From Gardnerella vaginalis (GTDB taxonomy: Bacteria > Actinomycetota > Actinomycetes > Actinomycetales > Bifidobacteriaceae): 64,000 nt of DNA. Below, piece after piece: positions 8,930 to 44,926 of the stretch. Positions within the stretch are counted from its first letter, which is position 1, and the number at the start of each line of letters is the position of its first letter. The position numbers were made by a program, and so were the translations under genes. The stretch covers positions 992,001-1,056,000 of the forward strand of contig NZ_JBETXJ010000002.1 in assembly GCF_040427915.1 (NCBI RefSeq), read 5' to 3'. Under the pieces are notes generated by a model, which was not told the DNA's origin, searched no databases, and worked only from the letters and a program-made list of their open reading frames with translations.

Positions 8930-11542
8930 ATGCCTGATGCATTTGAAACGCCAGTTTTTAACAAAACTAATACGCAGGATGCCGAAACATTCCTTCCATC
9001 GGCTAGCTGCAATGCTCAGCTACGTTTTGATAATTGGGGTTATCGTCATGCTTCTCGCAAACATTTTGCTGTACGCGGGTTGAACCTAACAATTGAAGCA
9101 GGGCAAAGAGTTTTGTTGCTTGGTGCATCGGGCATAGGCAAATCCACAATTCTTGAAGGTGCTGCTGGGCTGATTGGTAGTGATATTGTTAAATCTAGCC
9201 CAAATAATTCAAAGCCTGATTCGAAGAAGAATGTTCTAGTTGAAGACGAAGATGGCGGTGTGAGCGAAGGCTCAGTATTCGTAGATGATTTACCAGTTCA
9301 TAAAGCGCGTGGGCGAGTGGGATTAGTGTTACAAGACCCAGAGGCTCAAGCTATTTTTCAGCGTTTAGGAGATAACGTCGCCTTTGGTCCTGAAAATATG
9401 AATGTTCCTCGTAAAGAAATATGGGATCTTGTTAATAAAAGTCTTGAAGAAGTAGGTTTAGAAGGCTTACAGTTACACCGTTCTACAGCCCATTTAAGTG
9501 GTGGACAAATGCAGCGTCTGGCATTGGCTGGAGCATTGGCTATGAAGCCAAGCGTGCTTCTTTTAGATGAGCCTACGGCAAATCTAGATCCAGATGGTGT
9601 TAATCAGATTGTAAAAGCTGTTGGTAAAGTTTTAGACGATACCAATGCAACAATGGTTCTTGTAGAACATCATGCGCAGCCTTGGATTGATTTGATTGAT
9701 AGAGTAGTGGTTCTTGGTCTTGATAATTCTGTGAACAATACAGAAGAGAATAACTATGTTCACGATGATGATATTGCGCGAGACGAGTTTGCGCAAACAG
9801 TTATTGTTGCAGATGGAACTCCAGACGAAGTGTTCAGCAGAAGAGATCTTGATTTTGAAAACCTTGGGATTTGGCTTCCTGACAAGTATAAAGATCCACA
9901 AGATCGCAAAATTGGTAGGATTTATGTTGAAGGCGAACCAGATTGCGATCCAGCAAAAGGTGATGGAAGAGTAGTTCTATCAACAGAAAACCTTGCGATT
10001 AGTCATACGAGTACTCCAATAGCAAAAAATATCAATTTGAAATTTAATTCTGGACAAATCACAGCATTAGTTGGAGCAAATGGTGCTGGAAAGTCAACTT
10101 TATCTCTAACTTTGGCAGGATTAATTCCAGCTTTAGAAGGTCAGGTTGTAGCTAGTGAGGATCTTTGCGAAGGTGCAGGTGGCACTGATCCTATGAAGTG
10201 GAAGTCTACTGATCTTGCTAAAAGAATTTCATACGTTTTCCAGAATCCAGAACATCAGTTTGCGTGTGGAACCGTGCTTGAAGAAGTTATGCTAGGTCCT
10301 ATTAGAACTGGAATGAGTGAAGAAGACGCTAAAACTAAAGCAGAGTCTTTGTTAGATAGATTCCGCTTATCTAGATATGCTAATGCAAACCCATACACTT
10401 TATCTGGAGGTGAAAAGCGTAGACTTACTGTTGCTGCATCTTTGGCTGCAGCTCCAAGAGTTTTAATTTTAGATGAACCAACTTTTGGACAGGATCGTAA
10501 AACTTGGTTACAAATTATAAAACTCATTGCAAGCCTTCGCGCGGACGGCGTTAGTGTTATTGTTGTTACTCACGATAGAGAGTTAGTAGATGCGCTTGGA
10601 GCGCGTTTAGTGGAACTTAAAACTAATGTGGATTCCACTAATAACGAATTTTATGAGTCTGAAAATATAGATAATTCACAAGAATCTTTAGCATTATCTT
10701 CGTCAACAAATGCAACGAATATATCTCGAATAGAAGTTAGCGATGTGAATCATCGCGATGAGGCAGCTCGTGCATCAAGTTATTCTCCATTCTTGGCATC
10801 TTTGAATCCTGTGTATAGGATGCTTGGAGCCTTCCTGCTTTCGGTTCCGCTTTTGTTTACTCTCGATTGGCTTTCTGCAACAATAGCTTTGGTTTTGGAG
10901 TTTGTGATTCTTTGGGTTGTTAAAATGAACCCTTGGCGAGTTATTAAACTTTCTTGGCCTGTATGGGTTGGTGCGCCTGGATCTGCCTTAGCTGTGTGGT
11001 TGTATGGTAAATCAGGTGGAGCAACATGGTTTGATTGGGGAATTATTCACGTGAGTGATCATTCCACAACTCTTGCAATTGCAACATTTATCAGAATTTT
11101 AGCTATCGGTGTTCCAGCTATTGTTACTGTTATTGGCATTGATGCAACTGATTTAGCTGATGCTTTTAGTCAAGTTATGAAATTGCCAGATAGGTTTGTT
11201 TACGGTGGATTAGCTGGTATGCGATTGTTTAGTGTTCTTCAAGACGATTGGGCTGCTCTTAGTGCATCTAGGCGTTCTCGCGGACTTGGTGATGATAGTA
11301 AGATTAAGGCTTTTATGCCTCAAGCTTTTGCTCTTTTGGTGCTTTCTATTAGAAGATCTACAACTTTGGCTACGGCTATGGAAGCGCGTGGATTTGGTGG
11401 AGAAAACCCAAGATCTCATGCACGTATAAGTCATGTGAATAAACGCGATTATGTGTTTATGATTGGGTGCTTAATTATCCCTGCTATAGCTTTAATCGCT
11501 GCTGTATACTACGGTACTTTTGCTCTTCTTGGAGGCAATTAA
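8930..11542 (+). CDS. Fused ECF transporter: two ATPase domains plus T subunit (YkoD-YkoC type)
   Basis: An 870-residue energising module for vitamin uptake. ABC domain 1: Walker A GASGIGKST (65-73), LSGGQ (189-193), LLLDEP (210-215). ABC domain 2: GANGAGKST (382-390), LSGGE (491-495), LILDEP (512-517). After a Ser/Asn-rich linker (about 565-618) comes a membrane T domain with the coupling motifs SRRSRG and MEARG. It is a paralogue of the separate ATPase and T genes at 35116-37601, there split into two proteins. The TPP riboswitch upstream points to thiamine or its HMP moiety. No S subunit is encoded nearby, so it may borrow one. The AAAGGA just before the ATG supports the start. Confidence 0.9.
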   Translation: MPDAFETPVFNKTNTQDAETFLPSASCNAQLRFDNWGYRHASRKHFAVRGLNLTIEAGQRVLLLGASGIGKSTILEGAAGLIGSDIVKSSPNNSKPDSKKNVLVEDEDGGVSEGSVFVDDLPVHKARGRVGLVLQDPEAQAIFQRLGDNVAFGPENMNVPRKEIWDLVNKSLEEVGLEGLQLHRSTAHLSGGQMQRLALAGALAMKPSVLLLDEPTANLDPDGVNQIVKAVGKVLDDTNATMVLVEHHAQPWIDLIDRVVVLGLDNSVNNTEENNYVHDDDIARDEFAQTVIVADGTPDEVFSRRDLDFENLGIWLPDKYKDPQDRKIGRIYVEGEPDCDPAKGDGRVVLSTENLAISHTSTPIAKNINLKFNSGQITALVGANGAGKSTLSLTLAGLIPALEGQVVASEDLCEGAGGTDPMKWKSTDLAKRISYVFQNPEHQFACGTVLEEVMLGPIRTGMSEEDAKTKAESLLDRFRLSRYANANPYTLSGGEKRRLTVAASLAAAPRVLILDEPTFGQDRKTWLQIIKLIASLRADGVSVIVVTHDRELVDALGARLVELKTNVDSTNNEFYESENIDNSQESLALSSSTNATNISRIEVSDVNHRDEAARASSYSPFLASLNPVYRMLGAFLLSVPLLFTLDWLSATIALVLEFVILWVVKMNPWRVIKLSWPVWVGAPGSALAVWLYGKSGGATWFDWGIIHVSDHSTTLAIATFIRILAIGVPAIVTVIGIDATDLADAFSQVMKLPDRFVYGGLAGMRLFSVLQDDWAALSASRRSRGLGDDSKIKAFMPQAFALLVLSIRRSTTLATAMEARGFGGENPRSHARISHVNKRDYVFMIGCLIIPAIALIAAVYYGTFALLGGN

Positions 11543-11716: not shown

Positions 11717-13246
11717 TTAGCGAGTTATTACGCTTTTAAGATCGCTTGCTACTTTTTTAGGATCTTCAGCGCACATGAGTGCAGACACAGTGCATACTCC
11801 ATCAATGCTTAGGTCTTTGATTGGGAAAACGGTGTTTTCGTGGATTCCACCAATCGCTAGAGTTTTTACGCCCATACTGTGTGCTACTTTTGCTACCTCA
11901 TTTACGCCTTCAATTCCAAGAGGCGGAACATCATGCGCCTTAGTGTTTGTGGCAAATGCAGCTCCGATTCCTATAACATCAGGAAGTGGAGTATCGTTCT
12001 CTTTGCACTCTTTATATGCTTTTTCCATTAGGTCTACTCTTGCGCAAGAAAGTCCAATCATCCATTCGGCTGGCATTGATTTACGTGCTGTAACAAAAGG
12101 CGTGTCTTTTTGACCAATATGCAGGTTGAATCCCAGTTTTGCTGCGCAATCAACGTGATCGTCTATGAAAATCGGTATATCTCCATGTTTTGCTTTTATA
12201 AGTGTTTTGCGTAACTTTATGGCTTTTTCTGATATTTCAGTATCGTTGGAGTATTTATCTCGCAATTGAACTACTGTCACTCCGCCATCTATGGATTCTA
12301 CTGCAACTTGCTCTTCGCTACGGTTTCCCATACGTGGATCTGTTACTAGGTAAAGTGTCCAATCTGTTGGTTCTATGCTGAACTCAATGTTTGTTAGTTC
12401 AAACATGTTGTTTACGCTTAATGTTTGCAGCGCATCGATCCACAGTGTTCTGAATGTTCCTGGTGCGGTTGTTTGTCTCGCTGCAAACGTTCCAGCTGCT
12501 GCAGCGTGCACGTGTGCAGCTACTGTTGCTGCTACTGGGCGCTCTGGGTTTGCACCCACATATGCCGCCACTAATGCTCCAAGAGCGCACCCAGTTCCTA
12601 CAACTTTTGTCATAGCCTTGTGTCCGCCAGTTATTCGCACTAGGCATCCGTGACCGTATACCGCGTCTTTTTCTCCAGATATAGATACTACAGATCCGTA
12701 TTCTTTTGCCAGTTTTTTGGCGGCTTCTAGCGCGGAGTTTACTGGGTCTTGCGCATCTACGCCTTTCATCTGACTGCTTTGGCCAGCTAAAGCTAATATT
12801 TCGCTTGCGTTTGCTCGTATTACTGTTGGGTTTTGTTTTACGATTTCTCTTACAAATTTTGTTCTAGTGGTTAATGCGTCTACTCCAACTCCAACTGGGT
12901 CCAGTACCCACGGAGTTTGCGTTTCTTCGCATGTTTCTATGGCTTTGCGTATGGCTTTGCCTTTTATCTCTTCGAATGTTCCAACGTTTACTAGAACGCC
13001 TGACGCTATTTTTGCGATGCACGCGGCTTCATCTGGGTCGCATACCATTATTGGTGTAGCTCCTGCGGAAAGTAGCGCATTTGCTGTTATGTCTTGAACA
13101 ATATTGTTTGTTATGCAATGAGTTAGTGGCTTCTTTGCTCTGACTCTTTCTATGCATGATCTAACGTCATTTAGAAACATTCGTCTTCTTGCGCGAACGC
13201 TAAAACTTGTATCTATATTTGTATTTGATTCGTTTAATTCTTCCAT
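11717..13246 (-). CDS. thiME: ThiM-ThiE fusion: hydroxyethylthiazole kinase / thiamine-phosphate synthase
   Basis: A 509-residue bifunctional salvage enzyme. Residues ~25-285 are a ThiM kinase (LTHCITNNIV at 41-50, the GTGC anion hole at 217-220) that phosphorylates the thiazole alcohol. Residues ~297-509 are ThiE (QLRDK at 327-331, HIGQKD near 376, IGIGAAFATNTK), which joins thiazole-P and HMP-PP to give thiamine-P. The ATG at 13246 is chosen because GAAGGGA (13252-13258) lies 5 bp upstream; a longer reading frame would start inside the riboswitch. Together with the TPP-controlled ECF loci this indicates thiamine salvage. No ThiC, ThiG or ThiD is in the window. Confidence 0.95.
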   Translation of the reverse strand: MEELNESNTNIDTSFSVRARRRMFLNDVRSCIERVRAKKPLTHCITNNIVQDITANALLSAGATPIMVCDPDEAACIAKIASGVLVNVGTFEEIKGKAIRKAIETCEETQTPWVLDPVGVGVDALTTRTKFVREIVKQNPTVIRANASEILALAGQSSQMKGVDAQDPVNSALEAAKKLAKEYGSVVSISGEKDAVYGHGCLVRITGGHKAMTKVVGTGCALGALVAAYVGANPERPVAATVAAHVHAAAAGTFAARQTTAPGTFRTLWIDALQTLSVNNMFELTNIEFSIEPTDWTLYLVTDPRMGNRSEEQVAVESIDGGVTVVQLRDKYSNDTEISEKAIKLRKTLIKAKHGDIPIFIDDHVDCAAKLGFNLHIGQKDTPFVTARKSMPAEWMIGLSCARVDLMEKAYKECKENDTPLPDVIGIGAAFATNTKAHDVPPLGIEGVNEVAKVAHSMGVKTLAIGGIHENTVFPIKDLSIDGVCTVSALMCAEDPKKVASDLKSVITR

Positions 13247-13249
13247 GAT

Positions 13250-13326
13250 TTTCCCTTCGCTAGCACTACCTAGATCAGGTTTAACGGGTGTAATCTCAGC
13301 GTTTTTACGCACCCCGAACCGACTTT
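13250..13326 (-). promoter_or_regulatory. TPP riboswitch of thiME with embedded ribosome-binding site
   Basis: Read on the minus strand, the thi-box is complete: CGGGGTGCG, CGCTGAGATTACACCCG, AACCTGATCTAGGTAGTGC, then AGCGAAGGGA. The final conserved AAGGGA of the aptamer is itself the ribosome site, 5 bp from the ATG. TPP binding should therefore shut translation directly, without a separate expression platform. Confidence 0.95.
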
Positions 13327-13518
13327 GACTATATCGTTTGTGTATGACGTTTGGCTGTGTAATATTTTACTTCGCGCGTTTTGCGTTGTTTTGCTTGAAA
13401 TTTCGGGGATGATTAAAGACTATTGTTTCAGATTTTATAAAATTTTTCCATTAATTTTTTATTTTTGTTTGCATTTGTACTTTTATAGTGTTAGCATCAA
13501 ACACAACACAAACAGATA

Positions 13519-13533
13519 TCGTAAATTTTACGA
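13519..13533. promoter_or_regulatory. 15-bp perfect palindrome upstream of the Trp leader
   Basis: TCGTAAA-T-TTTACGA, a perfect 7-bp inverted repeat around one base. It lies between a TATAGT box (13484-13489) and the leader peptide start (13607). A related TTACGA half-site follows immediately. It may be a repressor operator; the binding protein is unknown. Confidence 0.4.
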
Positions 13534-13606
13534 TTTACGATTTTGGATTTGTGACTGACCACATTAGCGTTTAGCTTTGCAGCTAAGTATTAGGGAGGCG
13601 GCTATC

Positions 13607-13696
13607 ATGCGTAACATGAATGCTCAAGCTCGCGATACTTTTGATGCTGCTCGTATGTGGTGGTGGCAGACTTCTCTTTGGCGTAGTTTACTCTAA
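13607..13696 (+). CDS. trpL: Tryptophan leader peptide (29 residues, WWW..W)
   Basis: A small ORF with a strong GGGAGG at 13593-13598 and ATG at 13607. The peptide runs MRNMNAQARDTFDAARM, then three consecutive Trp codons (18-20), QTSL, a fourth Trp and RSLL-stop. Four Trp in 29 residues, three in a row, is the hallmark of a ribosome-sensed attenuator. It overlaps the first arm of the three-hairpin system that ends in an intrinsic terminator before the ECF transporter genes. The product has no role of its own beyond its translation. Confidence 0.92.
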   Translation: MRNMNAQARDTFDAARMWWWQTSLWRSLL

Positions 13697-13761
13697 AGTT
13701 TTAGAAGCTGCATGTTTTAGGCTTGTAAAAGACCTCTAGGGTAAACCTGGAGGTCTTTTTT
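13666..13761 (+). promoter_or_regulatory. Tryptophan transcription attenuator
   Basis: Three alternative pairings can be drawn. Hairpin 1:2 is GCAGACTTCT (13666-13675, at the last of the three Trp codons) with AGAAGCTGC (13703-13711). Hairpin 2:3 is TTTTAGAAGC (13699-13708) with GCTTGTAAAA (13721-13730), one mismatch. Hairpin 3:4 is the terminator, AAAAGACCTCTAGG (13727-13740) with CCTGGAGGTCTTTT (13746-13759) plus T residues. A ribosome stalled at the Trp codons blocks arm 1 and lets 2:3 form, preventing termination. Low charged tRNA-Trp would thus turn on the transporter. Confidence 0.85.
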
Positions 13762-13906
13762 ATATCTCCGGAAAGCCAAATCTATTTGGATTAATCTTAC
13801 GTCTAAAACAAATCTAGAAAATCTAAAACAAATCTATAAACATAAAAAACAATTAAAAAATTGTTTAAAACAAGCAATATAAGAATCTAAATAAAAGGAG
13901 AAAATC

Positions 13907-14533
13907 ATGGCTCAGGAAATTAATGAAACTAAGCAGGAAACCTCGTTTACTTCTGCTGAATCTAGTGTTAATCAGGCTGCGGATTTACTTAAAGGTGTAA
14001 ATGTTAAAAAGCATGCTTTAGATATTACGTCTTTGGTGTTGGTGGCTGTTCTTTTTGCGGCAGGATGTATTCTTGATTTTACTGTTGCAAAAGCGCTTTC
14101 GATCGGAAATATTCAGCCAGAGTTTGTAATTGCATCGTTCTGCTTGTCTATTTTGCTTGTTCGTCCAAACGTTATTCAGGGCGCGATTATTGGTGCTTTG
14201 GCTGCGACTTTAATTCAATTTAACACTTCAATTCCTGGTCTTGAGTACGCTTGCGATATTCCAGCAGCAATTATTATGACTTTGATGTTGATGGGTTATT
14301 TAAAGGCTTTTCCTAAGGATGCCGCTAGAAAGTTCAGTGTTTTCCCATTCATTTCTGCCTTTATTGCAACTGTTATTTCTGGAATGATTTTTGCAACAAT
14401 CGCATCTTTCTTTATTCTTCACTCTCCAAACACTGTTCTTGTTATGCTTCCAATCATTTTGGGTACTGCTGTGTTTAATGCTGTTGTTGTTGAAGTTCTT
14501 TACACTCCAATTCGACTCGTTTTACACAAGTAA
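13907..14533 (+). CDS. ECF transporter S component, TrpP-like (copy 1)
   Basis: A 208-residue membrane protein with about six hydrophobic helices after a ~35-residue soluble N-terminus. It is the predicted substrate-binding S subunit of the ECF transporter encoded by the following genes. The helical core LFAAGCILDFTVAKAL...ILLVRPNVIQGAIIGALAATL resembles Bacillus TrpP (IGAALHSIVPPIL...ILLFPRVQNVLLIGAATG), and the Trp attenuator upstream makes tryptophan or a related indole the likely substrate. AAAAGGAG precedes the ATG. Copy 2 follows 121 bp later and shares long identical DNA blocks. Substrate is inference; the S-subunit call is firmer. Confidence 0.85.
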   Translation: MAQEINETKQETSFTSAESSVNQAADLLKGVNVKKHALDITSLVLVAVLFAAGCILDFTVAKALSIGNIQPEFVIASFCLSILLVRPNVIQGAIIGALAATLIQFNTSIPGLEYACDIPAAIIMTLMLMGYLKAFPKDAARKFSVFPFISAFIATVISGMIFATIASFFILHSPNTVLVMLPIILGTAVFNAVVVEVLYTPIRLVLHK

Positions 14534-14654: not shown

Positions 14655-15236
14655 ATGAATCAGGAAATTAACGAACATGCAGGTAATATGCTTAATTCTG
14701 TAAGTATTAAAAAGCATGCTTTAGATATTACGTCTTTGGTGTTGGTGGCTGTTCTTTTTGCGGCAGGATGTATTCTTGATTTTACTGTTGCAAAAGCGCT
14801 TTCAATTGGAAATATTAAACCAAACTTTTTAATCGCATCGTTCTGTCTTGCTATTTTGCTTGTTCGTCCAAATGTTATTCAGGGTGCGATTATTGGTGCT
14901 TTGGCTGCGACTTTGATGCAATTTAATGCATCGATTCCTGGTCTTAATTATGTTTGCGATATTCCAGCAGCAATTGTTATGACTTTGATGATTATGGCTT
15001 ATGTTCGCGTTTTTCCTAAGGATGCTGCTAGAAAGTTCAGTATTTTCCCACTTGTAGCCACTTTTATAACTACAGTTGTTTCTGGTTTAATATTTGCCTC
15101 TACTGCATCTTTCTTTGTTCTTCATTCTCCTAAGACGATTCTTGTTATGCTTCCAATCATTTTGGGTACTGCTGTGTTTAATGCTGTTGTTGTTGAGGTT
15201 CTTTACACTCCAATTCGACTCGTTCTACACAAGTAA
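14655..15236 (+). CDS. ECF transporter S component, TrpP-like (copy 2)
   Basis: A 193-residue paralogue of the gene just before it. Start ATG at 14655 with AAAGGAG; an upstream in-frame start at 14619 lacks a site. The N-terminus is shorter. Bases 14707-14803 are identical to 14004-14100 of copy 1, and the 3' ends are also nearly identical, while the middle and the N-terminal tails differ. The substitutions in the middle are mostly conservative membrane residues (VRVFPKDAARKFSIFPLVATF). Two S subunits beside one ATPase-T pair suggests either different substrates or dosage. Confidence 0.85.
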   Translation: MNQEINEHAGNMLNSVSIKKHALDITSLVLVAVLFAAGCILDFTVAKALSIGNIKPNFLIASFCLAILLVRPNVIQGAIIGALAATLMQFNASIPGLNYVCDIPAAIVMTLMIMAYVRVFPKDAARKFSIFPLVATFITTVVSGLIFASTASFFVLHSPKTILVMLPIILGTAVFNAVVVEVLYTPIRLVLHK

Positions 15237-15358: not shown

Positions 15359-17176
15359 GTGTCTTTGCTTGAGCTTAGGGAAGTATCTTTTAAATATTTG
15401 AATCATAATAAGGATGATTCTTTAGACTCTGCAAAGGCACAAGATTCCACTTTTGCCTTGAACAATATAAGTCTTAGTATTGAATCTGGCGAATTTGTTG
15501 GAATTATTGGACCATCTGGATCTGGTAAAACAACTCTTGCCTCTATTTTCTCTGGTGCTATTCCTCATCATTATTCTGGAGAACTTTCTGGAATCGTTAA
15601 GATTGCAGGTCAAGAAACTAAAAATCTTGCTTTAACTAATATAGCCTGCTTAATTGGATCAGTTATTCAAGATATTGATGCGCAAATGGTGGCTGCAAAC
15701 GTAGAAGATGAGATTCTTTTTGGTCTAGAAAACTTTGGTGTTGCGCACAATGAAATACCGAATCGAATCGATGAAGCTTTACAAATTGTTGGCATTAGTG
15801 ATTTGCGCAACCGCGATTTAGACACTCTTTCTGGAGGCCAAAAGCAGAAAGTTGCGATTGCTGCTATTCTTGCGCTAAAACCTAAAGTTATGGTGTTAGA
15901 TGAGCCTACGTGCGCTTTGGACCCTGTATCTTCTAAAATGATTTTTTCGATTCTTAAAGATTTGAATAAGAATTTTGGAATAACGGTTGTTGTAATTGAG
16001 CAGAAAGTGGCGCTTTTAAGCGAATATTGCAAGCGTTTAGTTGTATTGTCTAATGGCACTTTGTCGCTTGATTTGCCTGTTGGGCAAGCGCTAAAAAATA
16101 TGGATTTGCTTTATTCTATTGGAATAAATTATCCTCGTACAACTCATCTTATTAACGATTTACAAAGTGAGAATATTTGCGCTAAAAGCGATTTGCCTGT
16201 ATCGGTAGAAGATACAGTAGATACTATTGTTAATACGATTAATAGTGGAAATTCTTTAGTTTCACATGATGATTCATATAGTGAATGTGATGAAGATAAA
16301 TGTGCGGTTGCTTTCGACTTTTCCAATGAATCGCAAAACTTAGCACAAAATGCTTCACCATGTCTTTCTTTGCAAAATGTTAGTTTTTCGTATCCAAGTG
16401 GCGTTAGTGCTTTAAAAAACGTGTCTTTTGAAGCTTACGCTGGGGAGCTTGTAACTCTTGTTGGAAGAAATGGAGCTGGAAAAACAACTGTTACTAAGCT
16501 AATAAACGGTTTGCTTAAGCCGAGTAGTGGAAGTATTTTTATTGATGGCAAAAATACTAGCAACATGAAAATAAGCCAAATTGCTCACTATGTTTCGACT
16601 CTTTTCCAGAATCCAGATCGTCAGCTTTGTAAAGATACTATTTTAGAAGAAGTTGCGTTTAGTTGCATTCTTTTAGGTGAGTCTGTTAAAGAAGCTAATA
16701 ATCATGCTATGCAAGTGATTGAAAAGCTTAATTTAGATCCTAATGCTAGCCCTTTTATGCTTTCTAGAGGTCAGCGTCAGATGGTGGCATTGGCTGCAAC
16801 TGTTGTAACTAAACCTAAGATTCTTGTGCTAGATGAGCCTACTTGCGGACTAGATTACATGGAATGCTTGAGAATTATGCAAGTTGTAGAAGACCTTAGA
16901 GACCATGGTTGTTGCGTGATAATGGTTTGTCATGATATGGAAGTTGTTCTTGATTTTGCAACGCGCTTAATCGTAGTAAACGATGGACATATTCTTGAAG
17001 ACGGAAGCATAAGCCATGTGTTTGAGAATAAGAGTATTTGCGATGAAGCTGCTTTATGCGCTCCTCTTTTGTGCGCTGTATCTCAAGGCTTAGTTAAAAA
17101 TGGTTTTACTAAGTGTAAAGGATTGTACAAGAGGGATATGTTGGTTAATGCTCTTAAAAAGAGCTGCAATTTGTAA
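15359..17176 (+). CDS. ECF transporter ATPase, two fused ABC domains
   Basis: A 605-residue cytoplasmic ATPase that powers the S-T pair beside it. Domain 1: GPSGSGKTT (51-59), LSGGQ (157-161), VMVLDEP (177-183). Domain 2 begins near residue 345: GRNGAGKTT, signature LSRGQ in place of LSGGQ, and ILVLDEPTCGLD. A ~100-residue acidic, Ser/Asp-rich linker joins them. The start is GTG at 15359 with AGTTAGGA upstream. Domain 2's altered signature may make the two ATP sites unequal. The T gene follows 18 bp later. Confidence 0.93.
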   Translation: MSLLELREVSFKYLNHNKDDSLDSAKAQDSTFALNNISLSIESGEFVGIIGPSGSGKTTLASIFSGAIPHHYSGELSGIVKIAGQETKNLALTNIACLIGSVIQDIDAQMVAANVEDEILFGLENFGVAHNEIPNRIDEALQIVGISDLRNRDLDTLSGGQKQKVAIAAILALKPKVMVLDEPTCALDPVSSKMIFSILKDLNKNFGITVVVIEQKVALLSEYCKRLVVLSNGTLSLDLPVGQALKNMDLLYSIGINYPRTTHLINDLQSENICAKSDLPVSVEDTVDTIVNTINSGNSLVSHDDSYSECDEDKCAVAFDFSNESQNLAQNASPCLSLQNVSFSYPSGVSALKNVSFEAYAGELVTLVGRNGAGKTTVTKLINGLLKPSSGSIFIDGKNTSNMKISQIAHYVSTLFQNPDRQLCKDTILEEVAFSCILLGESVKEANNHAMQVIEKLNLDPNASPFMLSRGQRQMVALAATVVTKPKILVLDEPTCGLDYMECLRIMQVVEDLRDHGCCVIMVCHDMEVVLDFATRLIVVNDGHILEDGSISHVFENKSICDEAALCAPLLCAVSQGLVKNGFTKCKGLYKRDMLVNALKKSCNL

Positions 17177-17194
17177 AACAAATGGGTGATTTTT

Positions 17195-17968
17195 ATGCAA
17201 ACTAAGATTCTTACTTATAATGCTGGTTCAACTTTCTTGCACAAGGCAAATCCTATTGCAAAACTTATATTAGCTATAAGTGTTGTTGTGTCTGCTTTTA
17301 TAGCTCAACAATTTAGCGTTCTTGTAACTATTGCAGTATTGATTCTTGTTGCTATGGCTATGGCCGGGATTCTTAAAACTCTGTTTCCTCTTGTGCGTGC
17401 AATGCTTATTCTCGGCGTTGTAATGTTCTTTTTGCAAACGATTATTGCTCAGGGTGGAAATTATATGTTCTTGTGGTTTACATCAAGAGGAATTTCTGTT
17501 GCTGCAAGAGCATCTTTGAGACTATTCTGTTTTGCTTTGCCTCTTGTTAGTGTTCTTAGCATTACAAAATTGAACGATTTAGCTAATGCTGTTGTTCAAT
17601 ATCTACATGTTCCTTACTGCTATGTTTTTACGATTACTACAGCTGTGCGTTTTGTTCCTATTTTTGCGTACGAAATGTCTCAGATTACGGAGGCTCAAAT
17701 GGCAAGAGGAGTTGAGTTCGATACTAAGAATCCTTTTAAAAAGATTAAGCTTATGATGCCTTTGATTGTGCCTCTTTTGGTTTTGTCTGTTCGTAAAGCC
17801 GATAGTTGTGCTTTGGCTGCAGAAGAACGTGGATTCTATTTGCGCACTAGTAAGTCATCTTATAAAAAGTACACTTTTGGATGGCGTGGGCTTGTTCTTA
17901 TTGTAATATCTGCGATTATGATTGCTTTGCCTATAGTTGTGTCTATATTAGCTCCACAAATTATTTGA
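17195..17968 (+). CDS. ECF transporter T component
   Basis: A 257-residue membrane coupling subunit with about five to six helices. The two cytoplasmic coupling motifs are present: MARGVEF and AEERGFYL, whose arginines engage the ATPase grooves. It follows the ATPase gene by 18 bp, last of the Trp-attenuated transporter genes. ATG at 17195 is preferred, with GGGTGA 5-10 bp upstream; an in-frame GTG at 17186 is the alternative. The next gene (menA) is 57 bp on and could be read through. Confidence 0.92.
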   Translation: MQTKILTYNAGSTFLHKANPIAKLILAISVVVSAFIAQQFSVLVTIAVLILVAMAMAGILKTLFPLVRAMLILGVVMFFLQTIIAQGGNYMFLWFTSRGISVAARASLRLFCFALPLVSVLSITKLNDLANAVVQYLHVPYCYVFTITTAVRFVPIFAYEMSQITEAQMARGVEFDTKNPFKKIKLMMPLIVPLLVLSVRKADSCALAAEERGFYLRTSKSSYKKYTFGWRGLVLIVISAIMIALPIVVSILAPQII

Positions 17969-42448: not shown

Positions 42449-44926
42449 CTACTCGTTATCGCCAGCGGTTGCAGCGGTAGCGGTGACAGCGCCTGGCTTG
42501 TCGGTCTTAACGCCTGGCCATACCCAATCGGTGTAGTCTGGGTGATCAAGACCCTTGTCGACTGCATACTGGAAGGCTTCGAGGCGGAAGTCCTCGAGCT
42601 TCTTGATTTCGTCGGCATACTTAGCGGCATCAACCATGCGCAATGCTTCAGCGGTAAGCTCGTAACGATCCATGTCGTTCACGCGAACCATATCGTATGG
42701 CGTGGTGGTGGAGCCCTGCTCCTTGTAGCCATGAACGTTGAAGTTGTCGTGGTTTGGACGATCGTAAATCAAGCCGCGAATGTCATGTGCGTAGGAGTGA
42801 TAAGCGAAGAGGACTGGCTTGTCAGCAGTGAAGAGATCAGTGAACTCTTCGTCAGTCAAAGCTTCGTTGTTTTCCTTAGCGGACTGCAACTTGAGCAAGT
42901 CAACAACGTTAACAACCTTGAACTTAACGCCAAGCTTGTTCAACTTGTCGGCAGCGGCCATCAATTCCTGCTGTGGAACATCGCCAACACCAGCGAGAAC
43001 AACCTGAACTTCGTCATTGTTCTTAGCGTTGGAAGCCCACTTCCACTCAGCAGCACCCTTCTCGAGCTCTTCACGGGCTTCGTCGAGAGTCAACCAAGTA
43101 GCAGCTGGCTGCTTACCAGCGAAGATAGCGTTAATCATGTTGGTGGACTTGTAAGCCTTTTCAGCAACAGCAAGCAACATGTTGGAATCTACTGGGAAGT
43201 AGATGCCGATTACGTGATCGTTGTTGAAGGTCTTGTTCAAGAGCACGGAGGTTACGCCTGGATCCTGGTGCGAGAAGCCGTTGTGATCCTGACGCCATAC
43301 GTGAGAGGATACCAACAAGTTCACAGAGGAGATTGGCTTACGCCATGGGATCTCGCGAACGGTAGCCTCAAGCCACTTTGCGTGCTGGTTCAACATGGAG
43401 TCAATAACGTGTACGAAGGACTCGTAAGAGCTCCAGATGCCGTGACGACCAGTGAGCAAGTAACCCTCGAGGAAGCCTTCCATCTGGTGCTCGGAAAGCT
43501 GCTCGGTGACCTGACCGGTAACAGCCATGTGCTCATCAACTAAGCCAGAAAGGTAGCCAGCATCCCACTGCTTGTTGGTTACCTCGTAAGCAGCCTGCAA
43601 ACGGTTGGAAGCAGTCTCATCTGGTCCGAAGATACGGAAGGAATCTGGGTTGTTCTTGATGATGTCACGAGTGTAGACACCAAGACGACGGGTAGCTTCG
43701 AGCTGGCCCCAGCCGTGACCGAATTCCTTAACTTCCTTAACTTCGTAATCCTCAAGCTTTGGAAGCTTCAAATCTTCACGAATACGACCGCCGTTAGCGT
43801 TTGGATTTTCACCAATACGGAGTTCGCCCTTTGGCATGAAGGAAAGAACGTCTTCCTTAACAGCACCCTTTTCATCGAAGAGCTCTTCAGGCTTGTAGGA
43901 CTTCATCCAGTTCTTCAAAACCTCGAAGTGAGCTTCGGTATCGCGAGCAGATGCCAGTGGCACCTGGTGTGCACGCCAAGAACCTTCGGTCTTCTTGCCA
44001 TCGATGAACTTCGGGCAGGTCCAACCCTTTGGAGTGCGGAAGATAATCATCGGATAGTAAGGACGAGTTACATCGTTAGTCTGAGCTTCAGCCTTAATAT
44101 CGCAAATCTCATCGAAGATGGTTTCGAACATATCAGCGAAGCGACGGTGGATGGACATATGATCCTCATCGTCGAAGCCAGCAACGAACTCGTATGGTTC
44201 ATAACCCATGCCGTGGAAGAACTCATGAAGCTCTTCGTCAGAAATACGGGAAAGAATAGTTGGGTTAGCAATCTTATAACCGTTCAAGTGCAAGATTGGA
44301 AGCACGATACCATCGGTACGTGGGTTCACAAGCTTGTTGGACTGCCAACCGGTGGCCAAAGGACCAGTTTCAGCTTCGCCATCGCCGACGATTGCTGGAA
44401 CAAACAAGCTTGGGTTGTTCATTACAGCGCCGTAAGCGTGGGAGAGCGCGTAACCAAGCTCGCCACCTTCGTGGATGGAACCTGGGGTTTCAGGAGCGAA
44501 GTGGGAAGGAATACCGCCTGGGTAAGAGAACTGACGGAAGAACTTCTGTAAGCCAGCTTCGTCCTTAGTAATCTTTGGATAATATTCGGTGTATGTGCCG
44601 TCGAGGTAGGACTGAGCAGTACCAGCTGGTCCGCCGTGACCTGGACCCATGATGATTACAGTATTCTGCTGGTGATCAGCGATAAAGCGGTTGATGTGTC
44701 CAATAAGGAAGTTAAGGCCTGGAGTAGTGCCCCAGTGACCTACCAGACGATGCTTAACATCTTCGCGAGTAAATGGCTCCTTCATTAGAGGGTTGCTGCG
44801 AAGATAAATCTGACCGATTGCGAGATAGTTTGCTACGCGCCAATACTTGTCTACGCCTTCGATGGCCGCCTCAGAAACTGGAGCATTTAGCTTCTTCCAA
44901 GGGGTGCCAATAACAGGACTCGTCAT
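42449..44926 (-). CDS. xfp: Xylulose-5-P/fructose-6-P phosphoketolase
   Basis: An 825-residue thiamine-diphosphate enzyme that splits xylulose-5-P or fructose-6-P with phosphate to acetyl phosphate plus glyceraldehyde-3-P or erythrose-4-P: the defining step of the bifid shunt. Seen are [23 protein letters not shown], the ThDP motif GDGEAETGP and the C-terminal [30 protein letters not shown]. The start at 44926 is fixed by AGGAG; six extra codons upstream lack a site. Codon bias is strong, with higher GC, and produces long antisense reading frames that are not genes. Its cofactor need fits the thiamine uptake loci in this window. Confidence 0.98.

Follow-up and report, generated by a model that had tools for sequence, protein, structure and literature searches.

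A Candidate Ribosome-Mediated Attenuator Upstream of a Probable Tryptophan ECF Importer Cassette in Gardnerella vaginalis

The window, that is, the whole stretch of 64,000 nucleotides of the G. vaginalis genome analyzed here, contains a short leader ORF with clustered Trp codons and a terminator hairpin in front of a cassette of ECF transporter genes. Judging from sequence comparison, this arrangement is very probably a classical ribosome-mediated attenuator of a dedicated tryptophan ECF importer (S1, S2, a fused ATPase, and T) in a tryptophan auxotroph. The features are as follows.

13469..13497, + strand: candidate promoter (TTGCAT, 17 bases, TAGCAT, with TG upstream)
13592..13598, + strand: ribosome-binding site AGGGAGG of the leader, by direct reading; GGAGG is kept in 12/12 genomes
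13607..13696, + strand: leader ORF of 29 residues, by direct reading; ATG at 13607, stop codon TAA at 13694–13696
13658–13666 and 13679–13681, + strand: Trp codons of the leader, by direct reading; WWW and the fourth Trp codon, respectively
13666..13675, + strand: segment 1, which forms protector hairpin 1:2 with segment 2, in the minimum-energy fold; invariant in 12/12
13686..13695, + strand: segment 1′, the leader tail, predicted to pair with the terminator arm and loop at 13737–13746
13699..13711, + strand: segment 2, partner of 1 or 3, from folds and conservation
13721..13730, + strand: segment 3, inner part of the putative antiterminator; 9/10 pairs with segment 2
13727..13766, + strand: intrinsic terminator (hairpin 13727–13759, loop 13741–13745, T-run), from the minimum-energy fold and the terminator scan
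13907..14533, + strand: S1, TrpP-like ECF substrate-binding protein (PF17099, 25.6 bits, just under the cut-off of 27.2)
14655..15236, + strand: S2, TrpP-like ECF substrate-binding protein (PF17099, 33.3 bits, above the cut-off of 27.2)
15359..17176, + strand: fused ECF ATPase A-A′ (TIGR04520 and TIGR04521, both above cut-off)
17186..17968, + strand: ECF T protein (PF02361, 86.2 bits, above cut-off)

Leader ORF and alternative pairings

The initial annotation described a 29-residue leader with WWW and a fourth Trp, and direct reading of the sequence agrees with it. Clustered Trp codons, a ribosome-binding site, and a short leader ORF, the combination looked for in an attenuator, are all present. 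The motif WWWQ[TS]SLW is found in the leaders of all 12 Gardnerella-type genomes with the cassette. "Gardnerella-type" is a label; the six named records with a close S2 relative are five Gardnerella and one Bifidobacteriaceae bacterium. In the whole window, ATG-started ORFs of 10–60 residues with WWW number two on the + strand and zero on the − strand, and the one other than the leader ends at 42741 (+).

The block TTTGCATTTGTAC ... GTGTTA-CATC around the candidate promoter is conserved in 12/12 upstream alignments, while the consensus promoter scan does not flag 13469..13497. Strong conservation 5′ of the leader extends over 13469–13520 in 12/12 genomes, including GTGTTA...AACAC, and this block is possibly a promoter with an operator. 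On the opposite strand, a TPP riboswitch (13234–13326, −) lies before a divergent ORF (11717–13312), presumably a thiamine synthesis fusion. Neither the leader of the window nor 12 other cassette loci have an Rfam match at gathering score, which speaks against a T-box or riboswitch. The best weak match in the leader, the trpB motif RF04312, scores 29 bits against a gathering score of 59.

Three pairings, 1:2, 2:3, and 3:4, had been called exact. The 1:2 hairpin (13666–13675 with 13703–13711) is present with nine pairs and has one bulged base, A at 13670. The 2:3 pairing (13699–13708 with 13721–13730) is also present, but the word exact is wrong for it, since only 9/10 positions pair and G13704 faces G13725; this mismatch position is unpaired in 11/12 genomes. 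The 3:4 terminator (13727–13740 with 13746–13759) stands as described, with 14 pairs including one G-U, the loop GTAAA, and then the T-run, and the terminator scan recovers the same hairpin at 13727–13759. The start of S1 is located 147 bases 3′ of the hairpin, so that the terminator precedes the first structural gene. The fold of 13649–13766 has an energy of −39.1 kcal/mol (z −3.27) and that of 13678–13766 has a z score of −4.72; 0/200 shuffles are as low in either case. A terminator hairpin with a T-run follows each of the 12/12 Gardnerella-type leaders.

The position of the leader tail should be noted. The tail at 13686–13695 (GTTTACTCTA) is complementary to 13737–13746 (TAGGGTAAAC), a pairing that is absent from the initial annotation. 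To imitate roughly what a stalled ribosome would leave exposed, we folded the RNA between the end of WWW and the terminator loop, and in a second run added the first base behind the loop. In the stalled-ribosome-like fold, the helix between the tail and 13737–13746 encloses 2:3. The antiterminator claimed earlier, 2:3, is thus too short, and the outer helix adds to it. The extended antiterminator is predicted to exclude the terminator and to be open to masking once a ribosome sits on the stop codon. The short fold of the window by itself is unremarkable (z −1.00; 30/200 shuffles as low). The outer helix is predicted in 12/12 related leaders, shorter or bulged in some of them and most so in genome G121, and 118/120 of its pair cells in the 12 Gardnerella-type leaders are standard.

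Covariation across the 12 leaders, to which the initial annotation had looked for support of the arms, is seen as one two-sided change in the outer helix and not in 1:2. The nine pairs of 1:2 are invariant in 12/12, and therefore this hairpin gains no covariation support. At the last pair of the outer helix, four genomes have A-T and the other eight G-C, which gives modest support, since the two-sided change may be a single event. The tail sequence AGTTTACTCT is invariant in 12/12 Gardnerella-type leaders, though its reading frame is not: it is read as SLL and a stop in four genomes and as EFTLKF and a stop, or nearly so, in eight. The frame shift arises from a one-base difference, and the stop codon lies in two places. 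The invariance of AGTTTACTCT in spite of two reading frames weighs more than the pair change and points to a constraint on the RNA. When the duplex between leader and loop was compared with shuffles in 11 of the 12 Gardnerella-type leaders, p was below 0.05 in 9/11 and 0.24 and 0.144 in the other two; genome G122 was omitted, since no terminator was detected by the script in its leader.

In the model that we prefer, a ribosome would stall at WWW (13658–13666) when charged tRNA-Trp is scarce, covering segment 1. The stall would free the leader tail and segment 2 to pair with 13737–13746 and 13721–13730, respectively, and these pairings would trap the 5′ arm and the loop of the terminator, so that the importer genes are read. 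With ample tryptophan, a ribosome at the stop codon would cover the leader tail together with some or all of segment 2, which would allow the 3:4 terminator to form and transcription to end. If the leader is untranslated, hairpin 1:2 would form and lead to termination too. We infer the ribosome positions from ribosome footprint sizes, and readthrough would be expected to respond to tryptophan.

Importer genes and their substrate

The genes behind the leader had been described as ECF S, S, ATPase, and T, and the Pfam and TIGR matches agree, S1 falling just below its cut-off. S, two ATPase domains, and T together form a putative operon, in which the scan finds no terminator-like sites between genes. 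S1 and S2 are 81% identical. In the accessible part of PMC11109136, an AXXXA motif in helix 1 is linked to joining of the ECF module. AVLFA in S2 fits this motif, as looked for in helix 1 of ECF S proteins, and A[VI]L[LIF]AAG occurs in 41/42 S rows, the exception (genome G799) having serine first. A second ECF A-A-T fusion is located in the window at 8930–11542.

The initial annotation suggested a tryptophan importer, and two observations are in keeping with that. S2 exceeds the TrpP cut-off of PF17099, with S1 just under it, and a trpA match is absent in 38/40 cassette genomes. The cassette is probably a tryptophan ECF importer, its substrate being assigned from a moderate Pfam match. Among eight distant S proteins compared with TrpP, two have no match and only two are above the cut-off. 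The AlphaFold structure model has a mean pLDDT of 43.4, the PDB sequence search gave one chance-level match only (E 0.62), and the plasmid search gave no match.

Distribution of cassette, leader, and tryptophan synthesis genes

S is found in 12/189 Bifidobacteriaceae genomes, all in one GTDB genus, and the WWW leader is present in all 12. The RNA model R1 (E ≤0.1) matches in 17/189 genomes of the family: the 12 cassette genomes score 113.5–140.6 bits, with weaker extra matches within them, and the five others 20.8–24.6 bits. A PF17099 search of 394 genomes of the class returned the own genome only, while a search with the S-protein alignment in a 396-genome sample of the phylum found 28 further genomes in families f60, f67, and f81, which, at a guess, belong to Coriobacteriia. 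The ATPase is homologous in 28/28; for the T protein, this holds in 19 loci, those of sufficient length to include it.

Within 400 bases 5′ of the first S match, 19/28 of these genomes have a WWW leader: 5/5 in f60, 13/13 in f81, and 1/10 in f67. Such a leader appears in 0/1400 shuffles of the 28 upstream stretches and in 2/530 control tiles elsewhere in these loci. In total, 31/40 cassette genomes have it (12/12 Gardnerella-type and 19/28 others). The initial annotation staked the attenuator on conservation of WWW and of the alternative pairings; both are kept in 12/12 related leaders, and 19/28 genomes of other families have a WWW leader, differing in sequence, ahead of their homologous cassette. 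In f67, the cassette is without a WWW leader in 9/10 genomes, and no Rfam families were found in the loci of this family. The ATPase genes of f67 loci L077 and L079–L086 are apparently two and separate in most. Tandem S genes are seen in 5/12 Gardnerella-type and 3/13 f81 genomes (L063, L066, and L070), and the extra S copies take up different places in the S tree.

This tree has 42 rows, and all Gardnerella-type rows fall into a single clade that groups with f60 and f81 rows, not with f67, but the root is a midpoint only, with the fork left open and long branches meeting there. The patchy distribution makes transfer of the cassette into Gardnerella likely.

Of the tryptophan synthesis genes, trpA and trpB were searched. 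trpA matches in 144/189 Bifidobacteriaceae genomes, 143 of them above cut-off. No trpA match is found in the 12 Gardnerella-type cassette genomes, in 26/28 cassette genomes of other families, or in any of the 31 leader-bearing genomes; the two other-family carriers that have trpA (G761 and G912) are both without the leader. The association is not strict: in the family, trpA gives no match in 45/189 genomes, and the cassette occurs in only 12 of them. Nor does absence of trpA depend on the leader, since seven of the nine leaderless cassette genomes of f67 are also without a trpA match. TrpB is able to condense indole with serine to tryptophan. In 4/12 Gardnerella-type genomes (G091, G113, G120, and G121), trpB is above cut-off and nearly full length without trpA, suggesting that these four may salvage indole. 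trpB has no match in the other 8/12, which therefore probably need tryptophan itself.

The leaders outside Gardnerella are also followed by terminators (17/19 by one scan and 19/19 by a looser one). In 19/19 of them, CGGTY near the leader end is complementary to RACCG at the loop and 3′ side of the terminator, a motif picked after looking and in genomes that are not independent; CGGTY occurs in 310/3800 letter-shuffled leaders. It lies at one codon position in 18/19 and solely in another frame in G904, and a peptide constraint could therefore explain part of the pattern. The duplex between leader and loop exceeds shuffles at p<0.05 in only 4/19. RNAalifold on the 13 f81 leaders gives the terminator and a local hairpin and does not find the antiterminator. 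A tail-loop design common to Gardnerella and the other families is thus a lead only, in view of the post hoc motif, kinship, the codon position, and the duplex test. We consider it possible, with the balance tipping somewhat against, that pairing between the end of the leader gene and the terminator loop region is a compact design which the tryptophan ECF cassettes of two classes within the phylum have in common, its logic kept and its letters changed, and that it was carried into Gardnerella with the cassette by horizontal transfer.

Alternative explanations and relation to known systems

The attenuator may sense tRNA-Trp while the importer carries indole, kynurenine, or some other aromatic relative of tryptophan that spares the amino acid. 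We consider this unlikely. It could draw on the moderate Pfam match by which tryptophan was assigned and on the four Gardnerella-type genomes with trpB above cut-off and no trpA match; however, the Pfam family in question takes its name from tryptophan, and the eight genomes without a trpB match probably need the amino acid itself. More improbable still is that the leader, though real, mainly couples translation to mRNA stability or Rho, the hairpin being a constant partial terminator. The antiterminator comes from predicted folds and 1:2 has no covariation, as this explanation would allow, but it leaves aside the tail-loop complementarity in 118/120 cells of the 12 Gardnerella-type leaders and, in other letters and by the post hoc motif, in 19/19 other leaders. 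It is scarcely credible that WWW arose by chance in some random short ORF ahead of an ordinary terminator: one other short WWW ORF does exist in the window, but conservation speaks against chance, with a WWW leader in 31/40 cassette genomes and in 0/1400 shuffles of the 28 distant upstream stretches.

The attenuator that we favor shares its logic with known ones. The E. coli trp leader (RF00513) works by 1:2, 2:3, and 3:4 pairings, as would the present one. The leader of the window matches RF00513 weakly (16.7 bits; gathering score, 41), and, unlike in the E. coli leader, half of the predicted antiterminator is the leader's own tail. Attenuators of trp operons are known in Corynebacterium and Streptomyces of the same phylum, and, in the accessible part of that source, they have two or three consecutive UGG codons, an antiterminator, and a terminator with a T-run, like here (PMC1262725, BMC Microbiol 2005). 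Those attenuators control trp synthesis operons or trpS, whereas the genes behind the present one are those of an ECF importer, and the genomes give no trpA match. The same part of PMC1262725 mentions neither a tryptophan attenuator in Bifidobacterium nor a transporter among the targets. Ribosome-mediated attenuation is itself an old mechanism class.

In Firmicutes, trpP is controlled by TRAP or T-boxes. S genes beside their own ATPase and T are what we take to be group I, and a general shared module group II. PMC11487621 (mBio 2024), in its accessible part, lists Bacillus subtilis trpP as one of the S-protein genes deleted there and tryptophan as one of the ECF-imported nutrients. TrpP of B. 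subtilis is an ECF S protein, to which S1 and S2 are similar, and the S proteins of that organism use one general EcfA1-A2-T module, whereas the S genes here have their own ATPase and T. A tryptophan ECF importer as such is already known from that source, and the substrate idea is therefore not new. In the literature searched, as accessible and thin on subscription journals, we found no description of an ECF tryptophan importer preceded by a leader-peptide attenuator, and attenuation of such an importer, together with its spread, seems undescribed.

The model gives a testable account of how tryptophan uptake may be tuned in auxotrophic Gardnerella and relatives. Within this phylum, leader-peptide attenuation would thereby reach beyond synthesis genes to an importer, and the codon counted by the leader would lend independent support to the substrate assigned to an ECF cassette with weak annotation.
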